From positions 1-22,128 of the IMG/VR virus record IMGVR_UViG_3300021963_000725: DNA of 22,128 nucleotides; one strand, given 5' to 3'. The stretch's first letter is position 1. Every line of letters starts with the position of its first letter. Source of the DNA: a virus. The translations under genes and the position numbers were made by a program. The notes below the pieces were generated by a model. The model saw nothing but the letters and a program-made list of their open reading frames with translations. It was not told the origin of the DNA and did no database searches. Positions 566 to 12,533 of the stretch are shown here, piece by piece.

Positions 566-596
566 ATCAAAGACCTTTATCAACTATTCAAACTAC

Positions 597-625
597 AGTA
601 TAGCACAAGGTTTGCCGATTGTCAA
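597..625 (-). promoter_or_regulatory. Sigma70 promoter for the GP88-like gene
   Basis: The minus strand reads TTGACA, 17 bases, TATACT: a perfect -35 box and a 5/6 -10 box at ideal spacing. The 31-base leader to the ATG at 565 begins GTAGTTTGAATAGTTGATAA, which is nearly identical to the leaders at 8498-8528, 9474-9505 and 10024-10052. Confidence 0.85.
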
Positions 626-641
626 GTGCTATTTTTAGACG

Positions 642-661
642 GTGTTGCGTAAAAACAACAC
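642..661. promoter_or_regulatory. Dyad GTGTTG-N8-CAACAC, copy 1
   Basis: The sequence GTGTTGCGTAAAAACAACAC is an inverted repeat, extended by one G/C pair on each side. It ends 15 bases downstream of the ferritin-like gene and begins 16 bases upstream of the -35 box. Its centre is at about -61.5 relative to the predicted start of the 597-625 promoter. It lacks a U-run in the minus direction, so a simple terminator is not clearly supported; an operator or activator site is an alternative. Confidence 0.7.
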
Positions 662-676
662 CCCAAATGCTTGATT

Positions 677-1048
677 TTACTTGAGGTTTTTCAGTTTATA
701 TAGAGTAGAATTGATTAAGTCTTTGATTCCATCAAGTGTATTTTTTAATTCTGAATTTGGCGCAAGCATAACTTCTGCCTCATTAACGAATTTCTGTAGG
801 CCCTCAAAATATGAGATTGGTTCTGTAGCACCCATATAGATTTCAGGATACGCACGAATGATTCCATAGATGCCTTGATACGATTCAACATAAGTATCAA
901 TCAACTCACCAATACCATTATAGTATTCTCCTAGCGCCATATGCTTTGAGAATGAATCTGTTTGAAGATGCATTAAATGTGACAATGTTCTACTGTGTAA
1001 TAGTGAAACTACAAACGCTCCAGTATCTTCTTCATAAGGTAAGGCCAT
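677..1048 (-). CDS. Ferritin/Dps-like helical protein (DUF5856 type)
   Basis: The protein has 123 residues from MALPYEED. This start is chosen because TTAGGAGATACC stands directly before the ATG; an in-frame ATG 13 codons upstream has no such site. The sequence is almost all helix, with repeated His and Glu residues in LLHSRTLSHLMHLQT and ALGEYYNGIGELIDTYVESY, as in small phage ferritin-like four-helix proteins of the DUF5856 type. Known Dps proteins bind iron and DNA; whether this one does is not shown. A TATAAATA box lies 24 bases upstream of the start, so expression may be late. Confidence 0.82.
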   Translation of the reverse strand: MALPYEEDTGAFVVSLLHSRTLSHLMHLQTDSFSKHMALGEYYNGIGELIDTYVESYQGIYGIIRAYPEIYMGATEPISYFEGLQKFVNEAEVMLAPNSELKNTLDGIKDLINSTLYKLKNLK

Positions 1049-1071
1049 GGTATCTCCTAAAGTTTTTTTAT

Positions 1072-1079
1072 TATTTATA
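1072..1079 (-). promoter_or_regulatory. Possible T4-type late promoter TATAAATA
   Basis: The minus strand reads TATAAATA, the exact T4 late promoter box, directly after the stop codon of the 33-residue gene and 24 bases before the ATG of the ferritin-like gene. The short distance and the intergenic position support it, but an 8-base AT motif in AT-rich DNA can occur by chance. Confidence 0.5.
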
Positions 1080-1080
1080 T

Positions 1081-1182
1081 TTACCAATCATGAGTTCCAT
1101 ATACACCCCACCTACGAATGCAAATAGTGACACACAAACTAATAACAATGAATGTAACAATTCCAATTAGAAAGTAAAGCAT
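1081..1182 (-). CDS. 33-residue single-pass membrane peptide
   Basis: The frame starts MLYFLIGIVTFIVISL, forms one continuous hydrophobic segment of about 20 residues, then turns basic (RRW) and ends HDW. It fills the gap between the ferritin-like gene and the gene upstream, and its ATG overlaps the end of that gene by 16 bases, which suggests coupled translation. No strong ribosome-binding site is visible, only GAAG 11 bases upstream. The function is unknown. Confidence 0.6.
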   Translation of the reverse strand: MLYFLIGIVTFIVISLCVTICIRRWGVYGTHDW

Positions 1183-1712
1183 AATTGTTTGTCTTCGTTA
1201 AATTTATCTATTGCAATCTGCAACACATGCTCGACATACTGGTTAAGTGTCATGTCTGCCTTATGAGCGAGTTCCATCAAACGGTACAATTCTTCTTTAT
1301 CAAGAGTTAATGGCATCTCAATGCGAGTATCATAATCACTCTCATCAACAATCGATGTTGCTTTTTGAATGAAATCTTCTTCGGTCTCTAAATCAATATA
1401 CTTGAAATCATCATAAGCATAATCATATGAAGATTCTACGCCATTATCAATCGCATATTTTTTTGCCGCTTGGCGATAGTCAGGATGAATCCAACGATAG
1501 GCTCTAATCTCTCCATGAATTACATCTGCTTCAAATACTTGTTGTGTCAATCGATTATAAACTACATGAGATGAAATTTCTTGCCCGCCGTGTTTTTGAT
1601 TCCAATATGTGAGAGAATACATCTCATCTCGGTCACCATAACAACTCCAGCAATAATTATCACCCTCTGTAATTCTACCTTCTACAACATCCAACCAATC
1701 TTTTAGAACCAT
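1167..1712 (-). CDS. Hypothetical phage protein with a C-terminal ribbon-helix-helix-like segment
   Basis: This 181-residue protein follows GGGAGAGTGAG, a strong ribosome-binding site. The N-terminal half contains Trp/Tyr-rich segments (CWSCYGDRDEMYSLTYW) of no family I can name. The C-terminal part, from about residue 133 (MPLTLDKEELYRLMELAHKA, then MTLNQYVEHVLQIAI), has the strand-helix-helix look of ribbon-helix-helix or HicB-type DNA-binding or dimerisation segments. A regulatory role is therefore possible but unproven. It lies 15 bases downstream of the large virion-like gene and probably shares its transcript. Confidence 0.8.
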   Translation of the reverse strand: MVLKDWLDVVEGRITEGDNYCWSCYGDRDEMYSLTYWNQKHGGQEISSHVVYNRLTQQVFEADVIHGEIRAYRWIHPDYRQAAKKYAIDNGVESSYDYAYDDFKYIDLETEEDFIQKATSIVDESDYDTRIEMPLTLDKEELYRLMELAHKADMTLNQYVEHVLQIAIDKFNEDKQLCFTF

Positions 1713-1726
1713 CTCACTCTCCCATT

Positions 1727-2767
1727 TTAAAGTTTAGAAAAATCTACATCTCCGTATGTAACTTCAGGTTCAATCTCAAAGAAGTCCATCACATTACGAA
1801 TGCCACCTTTTAAGTATTCATACACCTTACGAAATAGTTCGGTAAAGAATGTCTTGATACGATTAATTATACCTGTTAGTAATCCTTCAGTCAACATTAA
1901 ACCACGATGCTCTTCAATCTCTTCCTCAAGTTTTTTTACACCCAAGGCAATTACAGTCCAGTAACGATACTGGCCAGTTTTCTCTCCCTTTGATTTTACG
2001 GAAGTAGATTTGAATCTTACAGTAACATCAGTTTTACTTGCAACTTTATCTAGAAAAGATTTGTCTGTTGCTTTATGAAGATTAACAGAATCACCTTTCT
2101 TGTCTGCTGATAAAACATACTCGGCATACGCTTTTGTTGTTTTACCAAACTTAACTTCACCTGTCATTGCCTCTTTTACAAATGCTCTACGAAAATCTGC
2201 ATTGTTAGCAAAGATATCTTTCATCAACTTCTTTACTTCATTGTTGGTATCGTTTGCTTTCTTTAGAAATTCATCCTTGCCCGCTTTCAACTCTTTGTCT
2301 ACTTGCCCTGCCGCAACGGAACTTCTTGTTAGATTGTCTAATTTGTCATGCGTAGATTTAATGATATCATCTTCAAGGGATTTTAAAGATTTCATGGCCG
2401 CATAGTATGTTGCTTTTGATTCATTGATGCCACCAGACATTAATTGTGCGGCACCCATCTTTAAAGAGATGCGAGTATCACCAATTAGAATATCTGTCTT
2501 TGGAGTTTTTGTAGAACCAGGAACACTATCAGGTCTCCAAAATTGAGACCAGTCTTTTGTAACATCAACACCTTTTGTGGGAAGTTTAGATGCCTTACCT
2601 TTTAGACCTTGCGCCTTTAGATAGGTAACAACTTTCTTTCCAGCATCAGGAGAAATTTCTTTTGTGTCAGGAGGAGTTTCACCATTCCATGTAGCAATGA
2701 TTACCTCTTCGAATACTGCACCCTCTGTTGCGTCTTCTTTTAGAAATAGATTAGAATAAGTTTTCAT
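1727..2767 (-). CDS. Virion-associated-type protein with PD-(D/E)XK-like motif
   Basis: The 346-residue protein is the largest of the left half. After the start MKTYSNLFLKEDATEG, a helix with E20 and E21 precedes TD-ILIGDTRISLK, where D92 and S101-L-K103 match the D...(E/S)-x-K core of PD-(D/E)XK nucleases. A long charged helical middle (about 120-200) and an amphipathic C-terminal segment (LLTGIINRIKTFFTELFRKV) follow. Similar proteins occur in T4-like phages, where I recall them as conserved or structural proteins. The nuclease reading is inference from a short motif. The ribosome-binding site AAAGG and a late-type box lie just upstream. Confidence 0.85.
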   Translation of the reverse strand: MKTYSNLFLKEDATEGAVFEEVIIATWNGETPPDTKEISPDAGKKVVTYLKAQGLKGKASKLPTKGVDVTKDWSQFWRPDSVPGSTKTPKTDILIGDTRISLKMGAAQLMSGGINESKATYYAAMKSLKSLEDDIIKSTHDKLDNLTRSSVAAGQVDKELKAGKDEFLKKANDTNNEVKKLMKDIFANNADFRRAFVKEAMTGEVKFGKTTKAYAEYVLSADKKGDSVNLHKATDKSFLDKVASKTDVTVRFKSTSVKSKGEKTGQYRYWTVIALGVKKLEEEIEEHRGLMLTEGLLTGIINRIKTFFTELFRKVYEYLKGGIRNVMDFFEIEPEVTYGDVDFSKL

Positions 2768-2785
2768 GTTAACCTTTTTTATTTT

Positions 2786-2793
2786 TATTTATC
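2786..2793 (-). promoter_or_regulatory. Possible T4-type late promoter GATAAATA
   Basis: The minus strand reads GATAAATA, one base from TATAAATA, immediately after the TAG stop of the upstream gene and 19 bases before the start of the large virion-like gene. A late promoter would suit a virion gene. Confidence 0.45.
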
Positions 2794-3126
2794 CTATTTC
2801 ATAGCGTAATGGAGTATGTATTCATACACTCGTTCTTTACCTTCTTCTCCACTATCAAAAACTTCTCTTGGTGTTTGACTATCGAAACCTAAGTTTTTTC
2901 CTGTCCACCATTTCTCAATCAACTCATCTTTACCCAACAAAGCTTTTAAAAACAAATCACAGTTTTCTTTTGTAATAACTTGTTTATATGGTGAACCGTA
3001 GCACAAGCATGCGGCAAACTCAGGGCATGTTTCATCGATTGCTAGAAAGTCCCATTCAGGGCAGTAATGCTTATATGCACCACTCAAACTAGCCATTCGG
3101 TTTTCTTCGGCATCATTTTTTTTCAT
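2794..3126 (-). CDS. Small protein with MbcA/ParS (DUF2384)-like C-terminus
   Basis: The 110-residue protein has Cys and acidic residues in its N-terminal half. Its C-terminal 40 residues follow the pattern W..G.NLGFD.QTPREVFDSGEEGKERVYEYIL. The order Trp, Asn-Leu, Thr-Pro, then Gly and a final helix matches the toxin-binding domain of MbcA/ParS/Xre antitoxins (DUF2384). No toxin gene is adjacent, so it need not be an antitoxin; phages carry such stand-alone domains. Its ATG overlaps the stop of the 42-residue gene upstream (ATGA). Confidence 0.82.
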   Translation of the reverse strand: MKKNDAEENRMASLSGAYKHYCPEWDFLAIDETCPEFAACLCYGSPYKQVITKENCDLFLKALLGKDELIEKWWTGKNLGFDSQTPREVFDSGEEGKERVYEYILHYAMK

Positions 3127-3251
3127 TTAACATTTTCTTTAATATAGACCTTTGCGTTTTCAACTTGACGGTCAACAAAACTTGCGAGACTACTTACACC
3201 AACTGTTGCAACTACAATGCCTAAAATAAATGCTACAAGATGTGAAATCAT
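3123..3251 (-). CDS. 42-residue membrane protein
   Basis: The protein MISHLVAFILGIVVATVGVS has one hydrophobic segment (about residues 4-24) and then an amphipathic basic tail (FVDRQVENAKVYIKEN). Both ends overlap its neighbours as ATGA, typical of coupled phage genes, and it fills the gap between them exactly. It is probably an inner membrane protein with a cytoplasmic tail. No family was recognised. Confidence 0.75.
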   Translation of the reverse strand: MISHLVAFILGIVVATVGVSSLASFVDRQVENAKVYIKENVK

Positions 3252-3481
3252 TTTATATCCCCTTTAAGGTTTTTCAATACTTCTTTTGCGTCAGTAAACT
3301 TTTCATCAATCATATCTTCTAAAATCTCTTGTCTCACAAGTTCCATTAGTGTATCAACCAATTGTGCATTTTCAAGAGATAGTGTTGAGCGCCATTCTTC
3401 AAATTGGTCAACATCAGGAAAGTTCCAAATAATATCTAGAAGTTTAACTTGTTGTTTAGTGAGGCCGCCGATTGAAATCAT
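3248..3481 (-). CDS. Conserved phage hypothetical protein
   Basis: This 77-residue acidic helical protein begins MISIGGLTKQQVKLLDIIWN and is rich in Leu and Glu (LVDTLMELVRQEILEDM). Similar short proteins are common in T4-like phages, but I know no function. It overlaps the genes on both sides by 4 bases (ATGA), so it is translated from the same message, most likely from the 3733-3761 promoter. Confidence 0.85.
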   Translation of the reverse strand: MISIGGLTKQQVKLLDIIWNFPDVDQFEEWRSTLSLENAQLVDTLMELVRQEILEDMIDEKFTDAKEVLKNLKGDIK

Positions 3482-3705
3482 TGTGCATACCTTTGCAATT
3501 CTAATTTTGCTTGAGTAATACTGTTAGTCTTAACATTATTTATTTTAATGTTTCGATTATGCACAATGACGCATTGAATACCAGGAACAGTTAATGTGTA
3601 ATTATCTTTTGTTTTAACTACAGTAACTCGTTCACCTGTAGCAAAAAACATAGTATCAAACAACTCGTCTTTTGTTATCTTGCGTAAAAAATGAATATTT
3701 GCCAT
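3478..3705 (-). CDS. Small hypothetical phage protein
   Basis: The protein is 75 residues long from MANIHFLRKITKDELFDTMF. This start is preferred over an ATG 9 codons upstream because TTGGAGAAC stands 10 bases before it. The sequence is mostly beta-like (GERVTVVKTKDNYTLTVPG, CVIVHNRNIKI) with a short C-terminal helix. It has no recognised domain. It is the first gene after the 3733-3761 promoter. Confidence 0.82.
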   Translation of the reverse strand: MANIHFLRKITKDELFDTMFFATGERVTVVKTKDNYTLTVPGIQCVIVHNRNIKINNVKTNSITQAKLELQRYAQ

Positions 3706-3732
3706 AATATAAGTTCTCCAATCAATAATCAT

Positions 3733-3761
3733 AGTGTATCAACAAACTCACCAAAAGTCAA
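3733..3761 (-). promoter_or_regulatory. Sigma70 promoter with upstream stop codon inside the -35 box
   Basis: The minus strand reads TTGACT, 17 bases, TACACT (5/6 and 5/6 matches with ideal spacing). The TGA stop of the 47-residue gene (3758-3760) lies within TTGACT. It would drive the genes from 3705 down to 2794. Confidence 0.7.
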
Positions 3762-3901
3762 TCAGAATTTAAGTCCCACTCTCTTTTCTTCCATTGACTG
3801 TGGTGCCGATTATACCAAACGCCTTTTAGATTCCAAATGGCAATCTTAATATGTCTTTTAAAGTGTTGCCAATAATATTTTCTATATGTAATGGAAGACA
3901 T
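3758..3901 (-). CDS. 47-residue basic hypothetical protein
   Basis: The frame MSSITYRKYYWQHFKRHIKI, continuing through WNLKGVWYNRHHSQWKKREW, is very rich in Trp, Tyr, His, Lys and Arg and has no membrane segment. It fills an otherwise empty 190-base gap and ends in the -35 box of the next promoter. The upstream sequence has no clear ribosome-binding site. It may bind nucleic acid because of its charge, which is only inference. Confidence 0.6.
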   Translation of the reverse strand: MSSITYRKYYWQHFKRHIKIAIWNLKGVWYNRHHSQWKKREWDLNSD

Positions 3902-3925
3902 TATTTAAATCACAAAAAACCATTT

Positions 3926-4111
3926 TCATTTTAATTCACTCCTTTTTTTTACACACTCTTCTTTTACTTTGATAGGATAGTCAGGGTGCCAACTTGCATC
4001 ACGGCAATCGTATCGAACAGTTCTATTGCTCGTAAAAATATGAAAGAGAAAAAATAATGCGAAAACACCTACCCAAAAAAGAACAACAAATCTAAGTATA
4101 AAATCTTTCAT
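3926..4111 (-). CDS. Single-pass membrane protein with two Cys outside the membrane segment
   Basis: The 61-residue protein has one strong membrane segment near the N-terminus (FVVLFWVGVFALFFLFHIF) after the basic start MKDFILR. The tail has C36 and C54 and the motif RYDCRDASWHPDYP. Such small phage membrane proteins are common; the Cys pair would form a disulphide if the tail lies in the periplasm. It lies 3 bases downstream of its neighbour. Confidence 0.82.
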   Translation of the reverse strand: MKDFILRFVVLFWVGVFALFFLFHIFTSNRTVRYDCRDASWHPDYPIKVKEECVKKRSELK

Positions 4112-4114
4112 ACA

Positions 4115-4465
4115 TTAATACCAGGTTCTATGTTTCTCTGCAATGTGTTCACGACCATCATACTCTTCAACTTGCCATTCAATGTTATCAGGAATATCAA
4201 TAACTTTTAAACTTGAATAGTTGTTGTTTGCTAATTGTCCAAGTTCTTCGACAACCGCAATTAAATCTGCCTCACTTCGATTATCATAAAAATCATATTC
4301 GGACAAATAGTAGTCATTGTCATTCATATGCCCCTTACGATAGTAGTGTGACATGCATGCCTCTTCTTTTTTTTCAAACTCAATACCTTTGCGTTGCAAA
4401 AGTTTTTCAAATGCAAGGTCGGATAATCCAAACCCACCAAAACAAGTATTGATTACGACTTTCAT
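4115..4465 (-). CDS. Conserved phage hypothetical protein (MKVVINTCFGGFGLS type)
   Basis: This 116-residue protein opens with MKVVINTCFGGFGLSDLAFE and closes with WQVEEYDGREHIAEKHRTWY. Both ends are well known to me from many unrelated phages, but no function has been assigned. The middle is acidic and Tyr-rich. Its start overlaps the stop of the gene upstream (ATGA). Confidence 0.87.
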   Translation of the reverse strand: MKVVINTCFGGFGLSDLAFEKLLQRKGIEFEKKEEACMSHYYRKGHMNDNDYYLSEYDFYDNRSEADLIAVVEELGQLANNNYSSLKVIDIPDNIEWQVEEYDGREHIAEKHRTWY

Positions 4466-4656
4466 TTCTTAGCCCTTTTTCTTTTAACTGGTTCAATTTC
4501 TTCCAATTCTTTCTTTTCCAACTCTTTTACAAAAGCATCATGACCAGCACACAGTTTTTTATATTCTTCTTCGGTAACGACTTTATCGTTCCACTTATAA
4601 GTCCAATCGTCATTAGGTTCAATCACAACGGTTGCTTTTGTTTGCCGAGCAGTCAT
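4462..4656 (-). CDS. Small charged hypothetical protein
   Basis: The 64-residue protein begins MTARQTKATVVIEPNDDWTY, with a short acidic helix (TEEEYKKLCAG) and a Lys/Arg-rich C-terminus (PVKRKRAKK). It overlaps both neighbours by 4 bases (ATGA). No domain was recognised, and the basic tail is the only functional hint. Confidence 0.75.
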   Translation of the reverse strand: MTARQTKATVVIEPNDDWTYKWNDKVVTEEEYKKLCAGHDAFVKELEKKELEEIEPVKRKRAKK

Positions 4657-4937
4657 TCTTCTTCCGATGTTGTTTCACTTAGGTCAATAAAGTTATCAAA
4701 GTTGCCGGCACCTCGTCTTAGATACACCGGTCCGCCATCGACAAAAATCTCACCACATTTACAAGTAACGAAATCATGCCTATACTTCGATTCAATCACA
4801 TCTTCGCATAGTCTACATTTTGCTTTATTCGTAGTAATCATTTTCTTTCCTTTCTCAATAATTTCACAAAGGTTGCTCCGCCGGCTAAACCGCCGTTCCA
4901 TCAACTCCAAGATTTGCCGTTTGCGCCAACCAGACAT
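4653..4937 (-). CDS. Zinc-ribbon-like protein with an internal second start
   Basis: The frame encodes 94 residues, but two pieces are visible. Residues 1-32 (MSGWRKRQILELMERR) resemble a stand-alone small phage protein. Residue 33 is a Met at 4839-4841 with AGAAAGGAAAG directly before it, a good internal ribosome-binding site. From there CRLCEDVIESK...C-K-CGEIFVDGG gives two Cys pairs (C-x2-C and C-x-C), typical of a small zinc-binding phage family. Either a fused protein or two products are made. The first ATG overlaps the stop of the gene upstream (TAATG), which supports its use. Confidence 0.75.
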   Translation of the reverse strand: MSGWRKRQILELMERRFSRRSNLCEIIEKGKKMITTNKAKCRLCEDVIESKYRHDFVTCKCGEIFVDGGPVYLRRGAGNFDNFIDLSETTSEEE

Positions 4938-5032
4938 TAAGAGTTTCTCTCAAAGTAAATAAACAAAGCCGTAGCAAAGAGCGCCAGAGGTAAGTTCATA
5001 AATGCTAGAACAATAATTAGTATCCAATGCAT
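4937..5032 (-). CDS. 31-residue membrane peptide
   Basis: The frame MHWILIIVLAFMNLPLALFA, ending FIYFERNS, is almost one continuous membrane segment. Its TAA stop overlaps the next ATG (TAATG), and it fills the gap between two genes. No strong ribosome-binding site is seen; it starts 11 bases after the 20-residue frame upstream, so re-initiation is likely. Confidence 0.55.
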   Translation of the reverse strand: MHWILIIVLAFMNLPLALFATALFIYFERNS

Positions 5033-5043
5033 ATGTTTAACTT

Positions 5044-5106
5044 TCAACCTTTTGAAATCCACTCATTAATCCAATCGGCCGCTAAGATAATTCCTACAAT
5101 CCACAT
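5044..5106 (-). CDS. 20-residue peptide with strong ribosome-binding site
   Basis: The frame MWIVGIILAADWINEWISKG is preceded by ATAAGGAGTTAC, an excellent ribosome-binding site. It lies 11 bases downstream of the MSGGHFQYK gene and 11 bases upstream of the next peptide. The first 10 residues are hydrophobic and the rest amphipathic. It is very short, so it could also act as a leader that couples translation. Confidence 0.5.
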   Translation of the reverse strand: MWIVGIILAADWINEWISKG

Positions 5107-5117
5107 AATGTAACTCC

Positions 5118-5393
5118 TTATAGTTTTTTCAAATCATGTTGCAATCGTCTATGGAATGAATCTTCTCCATCATCACCACAGACTAACCAATCAATGCGTT
5201 GAGCATAGACATATGCTTGTCTCAATATACTCAAACCCTTTTTAAATTCTTCAATCGTTTCAGGTGTAAAGCGAGGCTCTTCAAGTTGAAAGAATTCTTG
5301 CAAGAGAACTTCATTGTTCAAAATCAATTGCTCAATCTCATCGGCAATGTAATTAATTTCCCATTGTTTATATTGAAAGTGTCCACCACTCAT
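5118..5393 (-). CDS. Conserved phage hypothetical protein (MSGGHFQYKQ type)
   Basis: The 91-residue protein begins MSGGHFQYKQWEINYIADEI and ends with AQRIDWLVCGDDGEDSFHRR. This pattern is widespread in phages and prophages of many hosts, always without an assigned function. It is mainly helical. GGAG stands 8 bases before the ATG, inside the 17-residue frame upstream, whose stop overlaps this start (ATGA). Confidence 0.88.
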   Translation of the reverse strand: MSGGHFQYKQWEINYIADEIEQLILNNEVLLQEFFQLEEPRFTPETIEEFKKGLSILRQAYVYAQRIDWLVCGDDGEDSFHRRLQHDLKKL

Positions 5394-5443
5394 ACTACAA
5401 ACTCCATAATGAGAATAAAAATCGCTACAGCAAGACTAGTCAT
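5390..5443 (-). CDS. Possible 17-residue hydrophobic leader peptide
   Basis: The frame MTSLAVAIFILIMEFVV follows AAAAGGTGAAAAA, a plausible ribosome-binding site, and ends ATGA at the start of the MSGGHF gene. It may be a tiny membrane peptide or a leader for coupling. Its small size keeps confidence low. Confidence 0.4.
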   Translation of the reverse strand: MTSLAVAIFILIMEFVV

Positions 5444-5447
5444 TTTT

Positions 5448-5753
5448 TCACCTTTTGTTTCTTTTCTTCATGAATTCATCATAACCTTCTTGAGTGCCGA
5501 TACTGTATCCTTTATCACCAGCGTGAATCTCTGCACCTGCTTTAAGGTTTTCGATTTCTCCAACTCCGAAATGTTGTTTCAATTTCTCACTTACCAAATT
5601 AGTGCCATTATCTTCGTCATTAACCCATTGGTCTGCCACACGGCCACATTCCTGAACAATCAACTCGGCGAATTTTTCAAATACCCATTCGCAATCAGAA
5701 AAATCTCCATCAGGATTAGATTTTAGCATTAGTTCTTTAATTCGCTCGTTCAT
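5448..5753 (-). CDS. Conserved phage hypothetical protein (MNERIKEL type)
   Basis: The protein is 101 residues from MNERIKELMLKSNPDGDFSD. I chose this ATG because it overlaps the upstream stop as ATGA and because the family usually begins MNERIKEL; an ATG 5 codons earlier is possible. Residues WVFEKFAELIVQECGRVADQ and KLKQHFGVGE are typical of this common small phage family of unknown role. Confidence 0.82.
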   Translation of the reverse strand: MNERIKELMLKSNPDGDFSDCEWVFEKFAELIVQECGRVADQWVNDEDNGTNLVSEKLKQHFGVGEIENLKAGAEIHAGDKGYSIGTQEGYDEFMKKRNKR

Positions 5754-5941
5754 AATGCAGGTCCCCAATATTGATATTTCAAAAGTTTAGCAGTATCTTC
5801 ATCATACAGCCAAGTTAATGCACACCACACACTATACTCGACATTGTAATATTCACGATAGCGAGTATACCAGTTCTTGAACCGGTTTTCATCACCACGA
5901 GCCTCAGCATACTTCTCAGCACGAATCAGATAATCCATCAT
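5750..5941 (-). CDS. Small hypothetical protein, aromatic-rich
   Basis: The protein of about 63 residues starts MMDYLIRAEKYAEARGDENR, with TTTGGAG placed 5-8 bases before two adjacent ATG codons, so the start could be 5941 or 5938. It is helical and rich in Tyr and Trp. No family was recognised. It is the last gene before a gap of about 200 bases and runs into the MNERIKEL gene with a 4-base overlap. Confidence 0.75.
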   Translation of the reverse strand: MMDYLIRAEKYAEARGDENRFKNWYTRYREYYNVEYSVWCALTWLYDEDTAKLLKYQYWGPAL

Positions 5942-6015
5942 AATTACTCCAAATGTGTTCAACTTTATAACTCAAAAAATATTCCAAAAAAAAATTTGAT
6001 AATCCGTGTTAGCAA

Positions 6016-6030
6016 AAAACTTTAAGTTTT
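6016..6030 (-). terminator. Weak AT-stem terminator-like hairpin
   Basis: On the minus strand AAAACTT-A-AAGTTTT is followed by TT, giving a run of six T. The stem is AT-only, so termination would be weak. Confidence 0.3.
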
Positions 6031-6071
6031 CATAGCGGACCTTTTTGCCAACTTTGAATGAGAGAGAAGGA

Positions 6072-6103
6072 CCGTGCGACTACTATACTACTCCGCTACA
6101 CGG
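6072..6103. other. GC-rich hairpin in the gap
   Basis: CCGTG and CACGG frame a 22-base loop that carries the direct repeat ACTACT-AT-ACTACT. On the minus strand an inner GCG/CGC pairing is also possible. It is not followed by a T-run, so it is more likely an RNA structure or protein site than a terminator. Confidence 0.35.
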
Positions 6104-6125
6104 CATCGGGTTTCTTTTTATATAG

Positions 6126-6136
6126 CCCCCCCCCCC
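6126..6136. repeat. Homopolymer run of 11 C
   Basis: Eleven consecutive C bases stand 10 bases downstream of the stop codon at 6147-6149 (read on the minus strand as G11). Such a run is unusual in this AT-rich DNA and is prone to replication or sequencing slippage, so its exact length is uncertain. Confidence 0.8.
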
Positions 6137-6146
6137 TTGGGTCAGG

Positions 6147-6308
6147 TCAAATCAGTTCAAGTTCTTTTCTCAGTTCTCTCTGAAACTCCTTGCGTTTTGC
6201 CTTTTCGCTTTTTTCATGCGAACCTGCTTTTCGAAATAAAGATTCTCTCACAAAATAATTGCGAGGTTTCTTTGATTCTAACTTAAAATGGAATGTCTTC
6301 GAATTCAT
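6147..6308 (-). CDS. 53-residue basic phage protein
   Basis: The frame starts MNSKTFHFKLESKKPRNYFV and continues with RESLFRKAGSHEKSEKAKRK, then a charged helix. The pattern K-P-R-N-x-F-V followed by RKAGSH-x-KS-x-KA-x-R matches a common family of very small basic phage proteins without assigned function. It overlaps the gene upstream by 26 bases in another frame, and its ribosome-binding site is weak. The length and composition convince me that it is real. Confidence 0.7.
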   Translation of the reverse strand: MNSKTFHFKLESKKPRNYFVRESLFRKAGSHEKSEKAKRKEFQRELRKELELI

Positions 6309-6495
6309 CACTTAATTTTCTCACTTCGTTCCATTGCTCATCTAGACTTTGCTCTTGAAATGCAAAAGAAATATTGTTTGCCAATCGGTCTGCGACCTTA
6401 GGGAATTTGCTCACAAGAGTTTCAACAAACGACTGCATTTGTTCTTCACTTAATGCCTTTATCGATACCGCTAGACTAAATGCCTGAATGCTCAT
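6283..6495 (-). CDS. Small acidic hypothetical protein
   Basis: The protein has 70 residues from MSIQAFSLAVSIKALSEEQM, with GGGAGTTAAA directly before the ATG and an ATGA overlap with the upstream stop. It is helical (MQSFVETLVSKFPKVADRLA) and ends DEFEDIPF. The function is unknown. Confidence 0.82.
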   Translation of the reverse strand: MSIQAFSLAVSIKALSEEQMQSFVETLVSKFPKVADRLANNISFAFQEQSLDEQWNEVRKLSDEFEDIPF

Positions 6496-6695
6496 TTTAA
6501 CTCCCAATAGAAAAGACCATCACAATCATTAGCACCCTCGTCTGCATCAGGACCATAGAATCTAGGGTCCGCAAGCATACGCTCTATGCACTTAAACTCA
6601 TCTTCTTCTAGCATGTCTGCATAGTCTGCCATACGCATCTCTGCGTCTTCTATAGCAATCTCAGCACACAAACTGTTCAGTTCTTCAAGGGTCAT
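6492..6695 (-). CDS. Small acidic hypothetical protein
   Basis: This protein of 67 residues begins MTLEELNSLCAEIAIEDAEM and ends DCDGLFYWELK. It is strongly acidic. An ATG three codons upstream is possible, but the MTLEEL start is more usual and has GAGTG upstream. It lies downstream of a strong hairpin terminator (6716-6764), so its own transcription source is not obvious; read-through is likely. Confidence 0.75.
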   Translation of the reverse strand: MTLEELNSLCAEIAIEDAEMRMADYADMLEEDEFKCIERMLADPRFYGPDADEGANDCDGLFYWELK

Positions 6696-6715
6696 AATAT
6701 ACACTCAATAAAAAA

Positions 6716-6764
6716 GCACTAGAAAACGACCAGCCTCAAGGCGCCATCGTATATTTTCTAGTGC
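6716..6764 (-). terminator. Strong intrinsic terminator overlapping a gene end
   Basis: On the minus strand GCACTAGAAAA pairs perfectly with TTTTCTAGTGC (11 base pairs), with an additional inner CGA/TCG pairing, followed by six T. The stop codon of the 48-residue membrane gene (6736-6738) lies in the loop, so the last nine codons are inside the structure. Confidence 0.75.
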
Positions 6765-6882
6765 CAAAAAACATCAGTAAGAGACCGATTCCTGCGACTG
6801 CAAGAATGTAGATAATGGGGGTTTCGGGACTCGCATCAACAGCACCCATACACAACAATAAACCGGCAATAAATCGAATCAT
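6736..6882 (-). CDS. 48-residue phage membrane protein
   Basis: The protein MIRFIAGLLLCMGAVDASPE has two hydrophobic segments, residues 3-15 and 23-39 (IIYILAVAGIGLLLMFF), joined by a short polar loop, then GTRKY. The start MIRFI-GLLL-MGAV is familiar from many phage putative membrane proteins of unknown role. It is driven by a TTGACA/TATAAT promoter whose leader ends at its ATG, and a terminator hairpin covers its 3' end, so it may form a single-gene transcription unit. Confidence 0.78.
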   Translation of the reverse strand: MIRFIAGLLLCMGAVDASPETPIIYILAVAGIGLLLMFFGTRKYTMAP

Positions 6883-6915
6883 TTTTTAGTCTCTTTTCTC
6901 AATCTCACAAACTTC

Positions 6916-6943
6916 ATTATACACGATTCTCGGTAAATGTCAA
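6916..6943 (-). promoter_or_regulatory. Consensus sigma70 promoter for the 48-residue membrane gene
   Basis: The minus strand reads TTGACA, 16 bases, TATAAT: both boxes are perfect. The leader GAAGTTTGTGAGATTGAGAA is a diverged form of the leader shared by the four other dyad promoters. Confidence 0.88.
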
Positions 6944-6958
6944 GTTCTAAATTTTGCC

Positions 6959-6978
6959 GTGTTGTATAAAAACAACAC
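6959..6978. promoter_or_regulatory. Dyad GTGTTG-N8-CAACAC, copy 2
   Basis: GTGTTGTATAAAAACAACAC is a 7-bp inverted repeat. It lies 15 bases upstream of the -35 box of the 6916-6943 promoter, with its centre at about -59.5. It is 84 bases away from the nearest upstream gene, which argues against a simple gene-end terminator. Confidence 0.72.
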
Positions 6979-6981
6979 TAA

Positions 6982-7050
6982 GGGGCACTCTGGACGCCTC
7001 CCGGAGTTCGCTGTTATTTAAGAGTAGGCGGACGGACCCGCTCACTCCCC
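6982..7050. other. GC-rich, potentially structured non-coding segment
   Basis: This segment is much richer in G and C than its surroundings. GGGG at 6982-6985 can pair with CCCC at 7047-7050, enclosing GAGT-ag-GCGG-(6)-CCGC-tc-ACTC (7022-7047) and an ACTC/GAGT pair around CTCCCGGAG. It could be a terminator complex for the lipoprotein gene on the minus strand or a small structured RNA. It contains no gene and does not fold as a tRNA. Confidence 0.45.
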
Positions 7051-7062
7051 CATTCGTAATCT

Positions 7063-7401
7063 TTAGTTCTTAAATTTGGGACCGCAAATCACATCAACAA
7101 TAACCTTGGTTTCAAAATTGTTGATTTTTGCTGGAATACGCACAGCCAAAGGTCGCAAATCTGCCTCTTTACATTCCTGTATTGCAACAATGATTTCCTC
7201 TCGGCTCATGCGGCGAATTTCCTTGTCAAGTTTCAGCGGCATGTTTGGCTCAGATAACATCACATCTTTCGATGGGTCTTTCTGCCCGTAATATGCCTTC
7301 ACTTCTACAGGGTCAATCTTTTCATCTTTTGCAAAAGGACCGTTGGTTGCACATCCAGTAGCAAGTAATGCCATTGAGGCAACAACTAGCAACTTTCTCA
7401 T
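7063..7401 (-). CDS. Phage-encoded lipoprotein
   Basis: The protein has 112 residues from MRKLLVVASMALLATGC. The basic start, hydrophobic core and LATGC lipobox with C17 mark a lipoprotein signal processed by signal peptidase II. An earlier in-frame ATG is rejected because AAGGAAAATAAT precedes the chosen one and the signal then starts correctly. The mature part (KDEKIDPVEVKAYYGQ...) has no recognised domain. It follows the HTH-like gene by about 10 bases and shares its promoter. A superinfection or envelope role is possible but not shown. Confidence 0.82.
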   Translation of the reverse strand: MRKLLVVASMALLATGCATNGPFAKDEKIDPVEVKAYYGQKDPSKDVMLSEPNMPLKLDKEIRRMSREEIIVAIQECKEADLRPLAVRIPAKINNFETKVIVDVICGPKFKN

Positions 7402-7411
7402 ATTATTTTCC

Positions 7412-7741
7412 TTATTCAGTTTCAACTTCACTAGTAACTTCATCAGCAACTTCCGTGACTGTAGCAGGCACTAGTGCAACACCAGTGATTTTCTGCGACA
7501 TTGGCACGGTCATCTTGACCAACTTGTAACCCATGACTTTCTTACCTTCACGGATTGGCACAATCGCTTGCTTTGAATACTTCTTAATGTCATACATGTA
7601 AGTGGAAAGGCGATACATCTTAATCTCGTCTCCCAACTTTTCTTTAATCTCAGCAACCATCAAGGTATCACTACCCATACTCTGAAACAAGTCCAGAATC
7701 TTTTCGTATTGCTTTTTCTCACCAGTTTTAACTTTAGCCAT
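7412..7741 (-). CDS. Winged-helix-like phage regulator candidate
   Basis: This 109-residue protein starts MAKVKTGEKKQYEKILDLFQ, after the strong site AAAGGAGAAG. The order helix, VAEIKEKLGDEIKMYRLSTY, MYDIKKYSKQ, then IVPIREGKKVMGYKLV resembles a winged-helix fold in which the final strand pair follows the recognition helix. The same pattern is found in small phage proteins thought to bind DNA. The C-terminus is an acidic low-complexity tail (VADEVTSEVETE). It has a promoter of its own and could control the repeated dyads nearby; that link is speculation. Confidence 0.78.
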   Translation of the reverse strand: MAKVKTGEKKQYEKILDLFQSMGSDTLMVAEIKEKLGDEIKMYRLSTYMYDIKKYSKQAIVPIREGKKVMGYKLVKMTVPMSQKITGVALVPATVTEVADEVTSEVETE

Positions 7742-7804
7742 AATCAACTTCTCCTTTGTGTGTGTGTTAAATACTACTCTTCATTATCAAGGGACTACAC
7801 CCAT

Positions 7805-7833
7805 ATATTAACGCATGTTTTATCGCATGTCAA
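7805..7833 (-). promoter_or_regulatory. Sigma70 promoter with a stop codon in the -35 box
   Basis: The minus strand reads TTGACA, 17 bases, TAATAT (6/6 and 4/6). The TGA stop of the upstream gene (7830-7832) is part of TTGACA. The leader before the ATG at 7741 is about 50 bases long and carries a CA-dinucleotide tract and AAAGGAGAAG. No dyad precedes it. Confidence 0.75.
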
Positions 7834-8072
7834 GTAGTCTCCTTATTCTTTTCCGCATTCTTAATGGCAAACTTAAAGTCTGCTAGAACACTTGCCAAAT
7901 TTTCATCGCTGTCACATGCCAGCGCCATCAATTGTGATTCTAGAAATCCAGCGAGATAAGCATAACTAATTGAACCATCTTTAGTATTCAGTTCGGTTAG
8001 TTTCTTCATCTGCTCTTGGAACAAGGCACGCCGCCCTGCTCGTCTATTCATTTCAATCACAAATTTATTCAT
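7830..8072 (-). CDS. Small hypothetical phage protein
   Basis: The 80-residue helical protein begins MNKFVIEMNRRAGRRALFQE and ends in Lys/Glu-rich sequence. Its ATG overlaps the upstream TAA (TAATG), and its stop lies inside the next promoter. No domain was recognised; it is co-transcribed with the MAYVSQD gene from the 8529-8557 promoter. Confidence 0.78.
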   Translation of the reverse strand: MNKFVIEMNRRAGRRALFQEQMKKLTELNTKDGSISYAYLAGFLESQLMALACDSDENLASVLADFKFAIKNAEKNKETT

Positions 8073-8497
8073 TACACTACCTTGTAAGGTTTATTCCATT
8101 TTCCAATATTGATATCGACATAGTAAGCGGTATCAAAATAATCTATTTGAGCATCAGAACGGTCATACCAATCTGCGGACTTCATCGCTGGCATAACTTC
8201 ACTAAGGAATTTCTTAGCGACACCAGAAAAGTGGTCTTGAAACCAGTAGGGGTTCACATCAATCGCTTGATTCTTACGGAGATACGCAATCATGTCGGGT
8301 GACATTTTATTGGCGGCAACTTTGTTCATATCGGTGCCAATGTAGTTCTCAACGAAATCAATCGGACCAGACTTGATATTCAATGAAATCGTAGAATGAT
8401 TACGGACTGCAAATGTCGCTTTGATTCCGTATTTTTTAAGAATCGGTTTAACTGCCGCAACAATCTTCGCTTTTCGGTCTTGGGATACATACGCCAT
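8072..8497 (-). CDS. Conserved phage/plasmid hypothetical protein (MAYVSQ type)
   Basis: The protein of 141 residues starts MAYVSQDRKAKIVAAVKPIL; GAGAAAGG lies about 9 bases before it. Residues KKYGIKATFAVRNHSTISLN and, near the end, DYFDTAYYVDINIGKWNKPY are strongly conserved in a family found in many phages and mobile elements, to my knowledge without assigned function. It is the first gene after a dyad-type promoter and is therefore likely expressed early. Confidence 0.86.
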   Translation of the reverse strand: MAYVSQDRKAKIVAAVKPILKKYGIKATFAVRNHSTISLNIKSGPIDFVENYIGTDMNKVAANKMSPDMIAYLRKNQAIDVNPYWFQDHFSGVAKKFLSEVMPAMKSADWYDRSDAQIDYFDTAYYVDINIGKWNKPYKVV

Positions 8498-8528
8498 AAT
8501 GAATACCTTTCTCAACTAATCAGACTAC

Positions 8529-8557
8529 AGTATAACAAACAATTCCGTATTTGTCAA
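8529..8557 (-). promoter_or_regulatory. Consensus sigma70 promoter for the MAYVSQ gene
   Basis: The minus strand reads TTGACA, 17 bases, TATACT. The 31-base leader GTAGTCTGATTAGTTGAGAA is 31 bases long, as in the 597-625 promoter, and differs from that leader at only a few positions. Confidence 0.88.
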
Positions 8558-8571
8558 GGGTTATTTTCCGT

Positions 8572-8591
8572 GTGTTGTATTTTTACAACAT
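8572..8591. promoter_or_regulatory. Dyad GTGTTG-N8-CAACAT, copy 3
   Basis: GTGTTGTATTTTTACAACAT contains a perfect 7-bp inverted repeat (TGTTGTA/TACAACA). Its left arm ends 14 bases from the -35 box of the 8529-8557 promoter and its centre is near -59.5. It overlaps the last codons and the TAA stop of the 47-residue gene. Confidence 0.72.
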
Positions 8592-8726
8592 CTCGTCATA
8601 AGTCTCAGCAATCTCAATTACTTCTTCGACTGACATACCGAAAACATCTGCCACATAAGAGTAGTTATTTCCACTAGCAACTAATAGTTCTAAAATTTCA
8701 ATTATTTGATTTTTAATCTTTCCCAT
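8583..8726 (-). CDS. 47-residue helix-turn-helix-like protein
   Basis: The frame MGKIKNQIIEILELLVASGN continues with YVADVFGMSVEEVIEIAETY. A helix, then V-A-x-x-F-G-M-S-x-x-E-V, then a helix is what a minimal helix-turn-helix looks like (as in sigma region 4 or small transposase N-termini). It begins 2 bases after the upstream stop, so it is translationally coupled. Its end is embedded in dyad copy 3, which could let the dyad act on its own message. Confidence 0.7.
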   Translation of the reverse strand: MGKIKNQIIEILELLVASGNNYSYVADVFGMSVEEVIEIAETYDEML

Positions 8727-8728
8727 AT

Positions 8729-8974
8729 CTACACCATATCTACTTGGACTTCAAATCCGTTTTCCCTACACCCCAAACCAACCGGAGCAATCTTTTCAAC
8801 TCGGCGCATTATCGCCAACTTCATCATAGCATTCCAAACTGCAACCCTCTGGTCGGTTTGCCCGAACAGATTGAATGCCATATCTTTTACAGTAGTGTAA
8901 ATTATTACACCGTTCAAAATCACACGAAACTTTTGTGAATTCTTAAAACCATCAATAATAACTTTAGTTCGCAT
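8729..8974 (-). CDS. Small conserved phage hypothetical protein
   Basis: The protein has 81 residues from MRTKVIIDGFKNSQKFRVIL. This start is preferred over one 5 codons earlier, which would extend further into the upstream gene. The first 35 residues look like beta strands (VILNGVIIYTTVKDMA) and the rest like helices with many Met and Arg. It resembles small T4-like phage proteins of unknown role. It overlaps the upstream gene by 11 bases. Confidence 0.76.
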   Translation of the reverse strand: MRTKVIIDGFKNSQKFRVILNGVIIYTTVKDMAFNLFGQTDQRVAVWNAMMKLAIMRRVEKIAPVGLGCRENGFEVQVDMV

Positions 8975-9185
8975 ACACACGCTCCACATATTTGTTTTCT
9001 AACAGGACTCGGTCTCGCTCTGCACCATACACATTGATAGGTGCATCAAGAACAACTGTATGCACGACTTCGCCGCCATACTTTACTCGACTAGATTCTA
9101 CACGACCAGCGACTGCGATATCGCCCATGTATTTCCCTTCGACTTTCAAACCTTCTAAATCCCACATAGTGATTCTTTCAAACAT
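8964..9185 (-). CDS. Small beta-rich phage hypothetical protein
   Basis: The protein of 73 residues starts MFERITMWDLEGLKVEGKYM; MWDLEG at 9167 is an equally good start because neither has a strong ribosome-binding site. The longer in-frame extension upstream is rejected because it overlaps another gene and has Cys/Arg-rich non-protein-like sequence. Residues VAGRVESSRVKYGGEVVHTV match a small T4-like phage family I recall, with a predicted beta fold and no function. Confidence 0.76.
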   Translation of the reverse strand: MFERITMWDLEGLKVEGKYMGDIAVAGRVESSRVKYGGEVVHTVVLDAPINVYGAERDRVLLENKYVERVYAN

Positions 9186-9384
9186 AGAAATCAGTTTTAA
9201 AACCGAGGGCATCATAGACACACTCTCGCACGACTGTATCGGTCGCTTCACCAAAACACGCCACCCGTGACAGGTTGCACAACTGTTGGTAGGTCTCGAG
9301 CCAGCAAAGATTCTTTTCTTTAGCACTCTTAACAATTTCAGCAACGGCGGCATTGCCAGCATCAGAGAACATTCCGTAATACAT
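9178..9384 (-). CDS. Small hypothetical phage protein
   Basis: The protein of 68 residues from MYYGMFSDAGNAAVAEIVKS is helical and ends TVVRECVYDALGFKTDFYV. Two ATG codons (9393, 9390) precede the chosen one, but only 9384 has a G-rich site (GGGA) 8 bases before it. Three Cys residues are scattered and suggest no metal site. It overlaps the next gene by 8 bases. Confidence 0.74.
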   Translation of the reverse strand: MYYGMFSDAGNAAVAEIVKSAKEKNLCWLETYQQLCNLSRVACFGEATDTVVRECVYDALGFKTDFYV

Positions 9385-9389
9385 AATCA

Positions 9390-9473
9390 TCATCCCAAGG
9401 TTGTAACTTTAGAAGAAACTGCGGCACCAAAAAGCACCATCACCGTAAAAATCACTAGAATCGTCATCAACAT
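9390..9473 (-). CDS. 27-residue membrane peptide
   Basis: The frame MLMTILVIFTVMVLFGAAVS, then SKVTTLG, is one membrane segment. Its ATG ends the conserved leader of the 9506-9533 promoter, where GAGAAAGAGAG serves as ribosome-binding site, so it is the first gene of that transcript. Its TGA overlaps the next start region. Confidence 0.6.
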   Translation of the reverse strand: MLMTILVIFTVMVLFGAAVSSKVTTLG

Positions 9474-9505
9474 TTTTTGCTCTCTTTCTCAACTCTTCAG
9501 ACTAT

Positions 9506-9533
9506 AGTATATCACAATGGGCAAAAATGTCAA
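9506..9533 (-). promoter_or_regulatory. Sigma70 promoter for the 9473-8583 operon
   Basis: The minus strand reads TTGACA, 16 bases, TATACT. The leader ATAGTCTGAAGAGTTGAGAA is one of the best copies of the shared leader. Confidence 0.85.
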
Positions 9534-9548
9534 GCCTTTATTTGCCGA

Positions 9549-9568
9549 CTGTTGTATTAATGCAACAC
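9549..9568. promoter_or_regulatory. Dyad CTGTTG-N8-CAACAC, copy 4
   Basis: CTGTTGTATTAATGCAACAC keeps a 5-bp perfect stem (TGTTG/CAACA) with a symmetric ATTAAT in the centre. It ends 15 bases from the -35 box, and its centre is near -59.5. The TAA stop of the 81-residue gene lies in its middle. Confidence 0.68.
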
Positions 9569-9802
9569 TTCTCGCATTGCCCCCATCACCGCTTGACGGA
9601 TGACCTGCATTTCACTATCTGAAATCTGCTCTAAGTAGGGAATTTGACTATCAAGGTTTCGGACAACATTTCGGACAACTGCGGAAACATCGGAACTTCC
9701 GATTCCCTCACCTTCAGGCCAATCTCCAAAAGTCCATTCAACTTCACTTTGAACAACTCCCATGATATGTTCAATACCAAAACGGGAAAAGATATCGCTC
9801 AT
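9557..9802 (-). CDS. Small hypothetical phage protein
   Basis: This 81-residue protein begins MSDIFSRFGIEHIMGVVQSE and has an acidic Gly-rich loop (FGDWPEGEGIGSSD) followed by helices. It overlaps the upstream gene by 4 bases (ATGA). Its final codons and stop lie within dyad copy 4. No domain was recognised. Confidence 0.78.
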   Translation of the reverse strand: MSDIFSRFGIEHIMGVVQSEVEWTFGDWPEGEGIGSSDVSAVVRNVVRNLDSQIPYLEQISDSEMQVIRQAVMGAMREVLH

Positions 9803-10023
9803 ACTCGTTCCTTCATAGTTTCAAAAAGCATAAACTTAGCAATGTTCAACTGCTTGCGGATATAATCTTTATCATACCCCATCTCAAGCAACTCTTGGCA
9901 ATCGCTCAACACGCCGGCAATTGTCATTTCAACACCAGACAACTTCGTAGTAAGACTGTCCAGGTACTGTTCACGGACTGCCGACTCTGGCATTCCGTAG
10001 CAATTCTTCTCAAATTCTGTCAT
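9799..10023 (-). CDS. Conserved small phage hypothetical protein
   Basis: The 74-residue helical protein contains LTTKLSGVEMTIAGVLSDCQ and ELLEMGYDKDYIRKQLNIAK, a pattern I know from many phage proteins of unknown function. GAAGG lies before the ATG at the end of a conserved leader. It is the first gene of a two-gene unit driven by the 10053-10081 promoter. Confidence 0.85.
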   Translation of the reverse strand: MTEFEKNCYGMPESAVREQYLDSLTTKLSGVEMTIAGVLSDCQELLEMGYDKDYIRKQLNIAKFMLFETMKERV

Positions 10024-10052
10024 ATAGAATCCTTCTCAACTGTTCAGACTAT

Positions 10053-10081
10053 AGGTTAACATAGTATTGGCAACTTGTCAA
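10053..10081 (-). promoter_or_regulatory. Sigma70 promoter for the 10023-9557 unit
   Basis: The minus strand reads TTGACA, 17 bases, TAACCT. The -10 box is weak (4/6), but the leader ATAGTCTGAACAGTTGAGAA matches the shared leader closely, which makes the promoter credible. Confidence 0.75.
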
Positions 10082-10093
10082 GGGAAAAGAAAA

Positions 10094-10119
10094 GGGGTGT
10101 TGTTTTTACGCAACACCCC
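10094..10119. terminator. Dyad copy 5 and probable intrinsic terminator
   Basis: The core GTGTTG-N8-CAACAC (10097-10116) is extended to a 9-bp stem, GGGGTGTTG/CAACACCCC. On the minus strand it is followed by TTTTCTTTTCCC, so this copy looks like a true terminator of the 10161-10463 gene. Its core lies 15 bases upstream of the -35 box at 10076-10081, the same spacing as in the other copies. It also lies between two divergent promoters. Confidence 0.72.
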
Positions 10120-10124
10120 CAAAC

Positions 10125-10153
10125 TTGACAATTTCCGAAAAATATGATATAAT
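10125..10153 (+). promoter_or_regulatory. Plus-strand consensus promoter, antisense to its neighbour
   Basis: The plus strand reads TTGACA, exactly 17 bases, TATAAT: a perfect sigma70 consensus. Transcription would start near 10160 and run antisense through the 10161-10463 gene. No plus-strand gene follows, so the likely product is an antisense RNA or interfering transcription. Confidence 0.7.
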
Positions 10154-10160
10154 AAAAGGT

Positions 10161-10463
10161 TTATATTTTTCGCTGTAGTCCTTCGCTGTTTCTAAACTTG
10201 GTCGCTTGCACATACTCTGCACGACCTAGCGGTATCTCATAGTCTACATGATAATTAGCATTTGACCAGCGCCATGCATATTCATAGTCTAGTTCAATAG
10301 TCTGTCTGCTCTCAAACATATCATCCGAGAATACAACGACAATCTTAGCGCCCTCTGCGTTTTCTCTGCGAGGCACTTGGCGCACTTCTCCAGTATACTC
10401 AGCGCCTGTTCGGTCGACTACTTTGACGATATTAAAATTTGTTGGGTTGGCGATTAACTCCAC
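10161..10463 (-). CDS. Hypothetical phage protein with GTG start
   Basis: The protein has 100 residues. The start is read as GTG at 10461-10463 because AGGAG lies 5 bases before it; the GTG two codons earlier overlaps that site. The sequence (VELIANPTNFNIVKVVDRTG, then VVVFSDDMFESRQTIELDYE) is mostly beta-like, with an aromatic segment YAWRWSNANYHVDYE. No family was recognised. It is covered by the antisense promoter and its 3' end is followed by dyad copy 5. Confidence 0.8.
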   Translation of the reverse strand: MELIANPTNFNIVKVVDRTGAEYTGEVRQVPRRENAEGAKIVVVFSDDMFESRQTIELDYEYAWRWSNANYHVDYEIPLGRAEYVQATKFRNSEGLQRKI

Positions 10464-10491
10464 GGTCACTCCTATTCTTTCCTCTATTTTT

Positions 10492-12416: not shown

Positions 12417-12533
12417 TTATTTTTTCGCAATAATTGATTGTATTTTCTCTTGTATCATCTTTGCCCAAAAGGGTTGTGGAAGATTCCACCCAACAAAAGC
12501 GCCTACTGCTATCCAAAAAAGTGTGTCTAACAT
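12417..12533 (-). CDS. 38-residue membrane protein near the holin
   Basis: The frame MLDTLFWIAVGAFVGWNLPQ, then PFWAKMIQEKIQSIIAKK, follows TAAGGAGATGAA, a strong ribosome-binding site. It has one membrane segment, a Pro-rich turn and a basic amphipathic helix. The same short protein occurs next to holin-type genes in T4-like cyanophages, as far as I remember. It may help lysis or be a second membrane partner. Confidence 0.75.
   Translation of the reverse strand: MLDTLFWIAVGAFVGWNLPQPFWAKMIQEKIQSIIAKK

Follow-up and report, generated by a model that had tools for sequence, protein, structure and literature searches.

Are the dyads that stand upstream of promoters in the virus record IMGVR_UViG_3300021963_000725 terminators, operators or both? 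The stretch of DNA that was analyzed, which we call the window, is a linear virus fragment of 22,128 bp with 36.9% G+C, and its convincing ORFs are mostly on the minus strand. Judged from a fragment of only 22 kb, the gene content is T4-like (T4 RNase H C-terminal domain, PhoH and 2OG-Fe(II) oxygenase), and close relatives at the DNA level were not found among isolate phages. Five perfect copies of TGTTG-N8-CAACA occur in the window, compared with a mean of 0.09 expected from shuffled windows, and none of 100 shuffles contained five copies. The copies are as follows:

643–660, minus strand: dyad copy 1, TGTTGTTTTTACGCAACA on the minus strand, without a T-run
6960–6977, minus strand: dyad copy 2, TGTTGTTTTTATACAACA, without a T-run
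8573–8590, minus strand: dyad copy 3, TGTTGTAAAAATACAACA, enclosing the TAA at which the preceding ORF stops
9550–9567, minus strand: dyad copy 4, TGTTGCATTAATACAACA, with the TAA stop of ORF 9557–9802 inside
10098–10115, minus strand: dyad copy 5, TGTTGCGTAAAAACAACA on the minus strand

Copies 1 and 5 form a 24-nt perfect inverted match to each other. A known RNA element was not found at the dyads in Rfam, and relatives of the gene upstream of copy 4 were not found.

Each copy is followed by a promoter on the minus strand. The TTGACA boxes are located at 625, 6943, 8557, 9533 and 10081, and the dyads lie 17, 16, 15, 16 and 16 bp upstream of them, respectively. A further promoter diverges from the far side of copy 5.

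597–625, minus strand: promoter 1, TTGACA-17-TATACT, drives the GP88-like gene 2–565, which runs off the window
6916–6943, minus strand: promoter 2, TTGACA-16-TATAAT, 12/12 consensus, drives a small ORF from 6882
8529–8557, minus strand: promoter 3, TTGACA-17-TATACT, drives gene 8072–8497 (phrog_10415)
9506–9533, minus strand: promoter 4, TTGACA-16-TATACT, first ORF from 9473
10053–10081, minus strand: promoter 5, TTGACA-17-TAACCT, drives the ORF from 10023
10125–10153, plus strand: divergent perfect promoter, TTGACA-17-TATAAT, antisense to ORF 10161–10469

Four of the five dyad promoters score 11/12 or 12/12 against the consensus, and all five are probably early promoters. The promoter sequence is similar among the dyad cassettes of the window. 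The preceding stop codon is ~16 bases from copy 1, ~85 from copy 2 and ~45 from copy 5, and it is overlapped by the dyad in copies 3 and 4. The preliminary description, which had given 15 and 84 bases for copies 1 and 2 and an overlap for copies 3 and 4, is thus correct to within 1–2 bases. Its contrast between a near-constant distance to the -35 box and a varying distance to the stop also holds, with 15–17 bp for the former and anything from overlap to ~85 bases for the latter.

Stem-loops next to the early promoters of T4-type phages have so far been taken as terminator cassettes. In the T4-type phages RB49 and phi1, the promoter-early stem-loop (PeSL) combines an early sigma70-like promoter with an effective terminator stem-loop, and these modules are shuffled by recombination. 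PeSLs are mentioned second-hand in PMC4503421. If the dyads were ordinary PeSL cassettes as in RB49, they would be intrinsic terminators of the upstream genes. The layout agrees with this explanation: a strong sigma70-like promoter adjoins the stem-loop-capable dyad in all five copies, just as terminator hairpins stand directly upstream of early promoters in RB49; the dyads are likewise repeated between small non-core genes; and a stop codon is often found at the dyad. However, direct inspection of RB49 revealed early-promoter hairpins with differing stems followed by T-runs (e.g., AGCCGACCTTAGCGTCGGCT-TTTTTATTTC), whereas in the dyads of the window both the sequence and the 8-nt spacing are fixed and a T-run is usually missing. 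The motif TGTTG-N8-CAACA was not found in RB49.

An intrinsic terminator is recognized by a G+C-rich stem and a subsequent U-run, and this combination is present in copy 5 and absent from copies 1–4. On the minus strand, a T-run (TTTTCTTTT) follows copy 5 only, and copy 5 is the sole dyad listed by a terminator scan of the window; in this copy, the RB49-type terminator and the dyad coincide:

10084–10120, minus strand: copy 5 with its extended stem, a 10-bp stem plus TTTTCTTTT tail, resembling an intrinsic terminator

Both the lack of T-runs in copies 1–4 and the terminator-like character of copy 5 had been noted in the preliminary description, and both are borne out. The RNA hairpin energies of copies 1–5 are -11.6, -8.6, -7.0, -4.1 and -17.1 kcal/mol. 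Four copies fold better than nearly all of their shuffles, as most dyads would, and the hairpin of copy 4 is no better than its own shuffles. Judged by sequence, the effective terminator of a PeSL is missing from copies 1–4, which do not appear to be intrinsic terminators, and is present in copy 5. A Rho-dependent or other factor-dependent stop may occur at the dyads.

The same dyad was followed in relatives that were picked by two neighboring genes, regardless of the dyad (159 loci, 2.3 Mb). These loci contain 244 distinct TGTTG-N8-CAACA sites, a count that does not equal the number of independent events because the contigs share ancestry. By comparison, other 5-bp arms at the N8 spacing give at most 28 sites each, letter permutations of the TGTTG arm give 1–13 sites each, and the TGTTG/CAACA arms at spacings other than 8 give at most 17 sites each. 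A promoter is within reach at 209 of 245 sites; nearly all of these dyads are just upstream of it, and almost none overlap it or lie downstream. Approximately 140 independent copies are situated just upstream of sigma70-type promoters. The 799 strong promoters of the relatives are bimodal, with perfect dyad arms at 141 and one mismatch at 38. These single mismatches always fall at half-site position 1 or 4, and positions 2, 3 and 5 (G, T and G) are mismatch-free among the 38 sites.

The pairing of the arms in RNA leaves no comparable trace. Compensatory changes are found in none of the 28 two-mismatch dyad sites of the relatives, and an RNA-only hairpin is rejected on this result. The extension of the stem past the 5-bp arm declines geometrically, at the level of chance. 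The sixth pair is pyrimidine-purine, with the mispaired C-A in 51 clusters, T-A in 51 and C-G the rarest at 11. Among 144 independent sites, a T-run follows 10 (7%), and an extended stem and a T-run occur together at one site only. The preceding stop is a median of 2 bases from the dyad, mostly at it or overlapping it, a placement typical of terminators, although short intergenic gaps would also explain this proximity; we give the median no weight for or against either reading. Despite the layout and the strong stem and T-run of copy 5, the missing T-runs in copies 1–4 and in most relatives, the shuffle-level hairpin of copy 4, the absence of compensation and the fixed sequence and loop length make it very unlikely that the dyads are ordinary terminator cassettes.

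A hairpin under selection as RNA keeps its pairing and frees its sequence and its loop. In the dyads, the half-site sequence and the spacing are fixed independently of RNA pairing, and this points to an operator. Therefore, we consider the dyads to be copies of one operator upstream of early promoters, which a symmetric dimer probably recognizes at the DNA level, and we assign this reading a probability of about 0.78.

The dual-use element suggested by the preliminary description, in which every cassette would terminate the previous unit and serve as the operator of the next, survives only in part. Copy 5, with its strong stem and T-run, suits both roles and plausibly combines operator and terminator, and the 10 T-runs among the 144 sites of the relatives are in keeping with some such cases. 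As a general rule, dual use is not supported by copies 1–4 or by most relatives, in which stem extension is at chance and the two terminator features meet just once, and we regard it as improbable that every cassette has both functions.

The operator reading is also favored by the position of the dyad relative to the promoter. In the relatives, the gaps between the dyad and the -35 box form clusters at 6–7 and 12–17 bp and a lesser group at 24–27 bp. Their periodicity of ~10.5 bp was stronger than that of a smoothed null in every one of 5000 trials, a statistic that may be inflated by promoters shared through ancestry. The pattern is also plain in individual genomes: G002 mostly uses 2–3 bp, G006 uses 12–13 bp, and G010 uses 6–7, 14–20 and 26–27 bp, with one variant site at 39. 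With the start of TTGACA set at -36, the dyad centers calculated from the -35 position are located at approximately -48 to -51, -57 to -61 and -71. The preliminary description had preferred a protein site to a terminator, and the fixed sequence, fixed 8-bp spacing, helical phasing and lack of compensation in the relatives strengthen this preference.

According to the mechanism that we propose, the operator would be the 18-bp sequence TGTTGY-W6-RCAACA, with TGTTG as the half-site. Immediately upstream of a strong early promoter of the sigma70 type, a symmetric dimer would occupy it, preferentially on one helical face. At approximately -51, -61 or -71, such a dimer could touch the alpha C-terminal domain or sigma region 4 of RNA polymerase, and contact with the polymerase seems most likely, rather than a steric block of the promoter. 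Copy 5 would have acquired its intrinsic-terminator tail in addition.

The sign of the effect can be predicted only tentatively. The operator may repress early genes, shutting them off after the first minutes of infection, and this outcome has somewhat less than an even chance. A boost of the early genes is possible too, with a slightly smaller chance. We slightly favor repression or damping because the dyad promoters of the relatives are nearer to the consensus than the dyad-less promoters. A 16-bp spacer is present in 61% of the dyad promoters versus 20% of the dyad-less ones.

Several known systems share parts of this arrangement. The dyad resembles the sites of class I activators and of phi29 p4 in that it is upstream of the promoter and phased with it. 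At a promoter whose -35 box is poor, the p4 protein acts as an activator, and at early promoters it acts as a repressor that impedes isomerization (PMC3100819). The p4 sites differ from the dyad, as they read CTTTTT-15-AAAATG and overlap the -35 elements of the early promoters. The early promoters of T4 (UP / -35 / TGn / -10) are, like the dyad promoters, strong, of the sigma70 type and preceded by A-rich sequence (PMC2988021); a sequence-specific dyad of such kind is not described for them in the sections consulted. An A-rich stretch is often present between the dyad and the -35 box.

The late-promoter sites of P2 Ogr and P4 Delta are also dyads near -55 upstream of phage promoters. TGTTG-N8-CAACA resembles an Ogr/Delta site of the form TGT-N12-ACA near -55. 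Activation through the dyad by a zinc-finger protein of this type would agree with the similar position of the annotated P2 activator sites, which are centered at approximately -55 to -58. However, the three annotated P2 sites contain neither TGT-N12-ACA nor the dyad, their sequence and spacing are different, and no match to Ogr_Delta (PF04606) above the cut-off was found in the window or in 18 related records. We therefore reject this link, which has scarcely any probability left.

A host regulator might instead bind the operator and boost the phage early promoters by class I activation. With their helical phasing, the centers near -61.5 and -71.5 are reminiscent of the positions of class I activators, and the A-rich stretch that often separates the dyad from the -35 box is compatible with such an activator. 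However, the promoters are already near the consensus, and 300 genomes of the Cognatazoarcus order contain only 8 promoter-linked matches, with at most one per genome. No chromosomal dyad regulon was seen in these 300 genomes of one betaproteobacterial order, which may not be that of the true hosts. We consider a host activator to be possible but rather unlikely.

The operator could also be read by a protein of the phage itself. In the first ORFs downstream of the dyad promoters, an obvious shared regulator was not found, and the candidate that we put forward is encoded elsewhere in the window:

7415–7741, minus strand: winged-helix protein family without a curated name, with its own promoter (7833–7805) without a dyad

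The family is represented by 95 loci among the relatives collected. The predicted structure (H1-S1-H2-H3-S2-wing-S3) has a core pLDDT of ~90, and among the solved folds closest to it is that of the BirA DNA-binding domain (Z ~8), a common fold; the protein is therefore predicted to be of the winged-helix DNA-binding type. At least two promoter-linked dyads are present in 15 of 16 long records with the family versus 2 of 19 without it, an association across 35 long records that is confounded by shared ancestry. Two exceptions speak against the candidate: record G019 has 10 dyads and no detectable homologue, and record G026 has the protein and no promoter-linked dyad. Among 40 relatives, a promoter of the winged-helix gene is recognizable in 38 and a dyad is present at it in 4, which leaves 36 dyad-free, whereas the gene behind copy 1 has a dyad in 35 of 67 relatives. 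A mostly dyad-free promoter is what would be expected of a regulator that is made before its targets, and it is not proof. On balance, we find it possible, but not probable, that this protein binds the dyad and switches the early genes; otherwise, the binder would come from the host or be some other protein of the phage. The complete scheme is more doubtful still: a winged-helix dimer of the phage, expressed from an early promoter that lacks the dyad, would bind TGTTGY-W6-RCAACA upstream of strong early promoters with 16-bp spacers and, by helix-phase-dependent repression or retuning through RNA polymerase, bring about early shut-off.

If the operator reading is correct, a PeSL-like layout here carries a sequence-specific operator that is common to many environmental phages, and it therefore predicts an undescribed regulator of early transcription. 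According to a review of T4, early shut-off persists without AsiA (PMC2988021); a dedicated operator would thus offer a handle on the question of shut-off in another lineage. Should the dyad switch act in this manner, it would be a dedicated mechanism of early shut-off, undescribed and widespread in environmental T4-like phages. A literature search on TGTTG-N8-CAACA found nothing, which is weak evidence of novelty. Moreover, the dyad motif may be a practical marker for the early promoters of uncultured phages. Variovorax phage V45v66 has five dyad sites, one promoter-linked and four in unrelated contexts, and was rejected as a five-site carrier because only one site is linked to a promoter. 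Across IMG/VR, the dyad-promoter pattern was found in at least 120 stretches, compared with 19 for the permuted-arm control, for which the scan was complete.

Among the IMG/VR matches to the dyad-promoter pattern that are listed (L005-L124, at least 120), a gap of 17 bp between the candidate operator, the dyad TGTTG-N8-CAACA, and the -35 box is almost missing, with 2 cases versus 40 at 16 bp and 13 at 18 bp. In three stretches from outside the window, dyads stand in tandem or abut one another by a single promoter (L035, at about 12440-12480; L183; L066), and this arrangement suggests putative cooperative binding.

Across 24 nt, the minus-strand sequence of dyad copy 1 is identical to the plus-strand sequence of copy 5. 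The following promoter adjoins copy 5:

10125-10153, plus strand: perfect consensus promoter, TTGACA-17-TATAAT

This promoter points away from promoter 5 (10053..10081, minus strand), and the ORF at 10161-10469 is antisense to it. On the minus strand, the sequence TATACTGTAGTCTGAxxAGTTGAGAAAG is conserved 3′ of the -10 box at window positions 577-605, 8509-8537, 9486-9514 and 10033-10061, and it is a putative early leader common to these four sites.

Three promoter-like TTGACA sites of the window have no dyad:

7833-7805, minus strand: site serving the winged-helix gene
18429, minus strand
19356, minus strand

In L212, L206, L245, L218 and other comparison stretches, the winged-helix gene promoter has its -35 box bracketed by an inverted repeat unlike the dyad (CGGCAAA...TTTGCC in some, CGGTA...TACCG in others), which is perhaps an autoregulatory site.

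In planctomycete chromosomes (L293, L295, L296 and L297), TGTTGYTTTTTTGCAACA or near variants of it lie 6-8 bp upstream of TTGACA-TATAAT, and the genes that follow have similar starts. The variant in L297 has the centre CTTTTT and precedes a histidine kinase/NtrC-like operon. Two contigs binned as Bacteroidetes MAGs (L289 and L299) carry two dyad promoters apiece, together with genes of the window's phage group; they are probably phage sequences misbinned into these MAGs.

A non-coding run of about 10-12 consecutive C at about 6126-6137 is unusual for this A+T-rich fragment.
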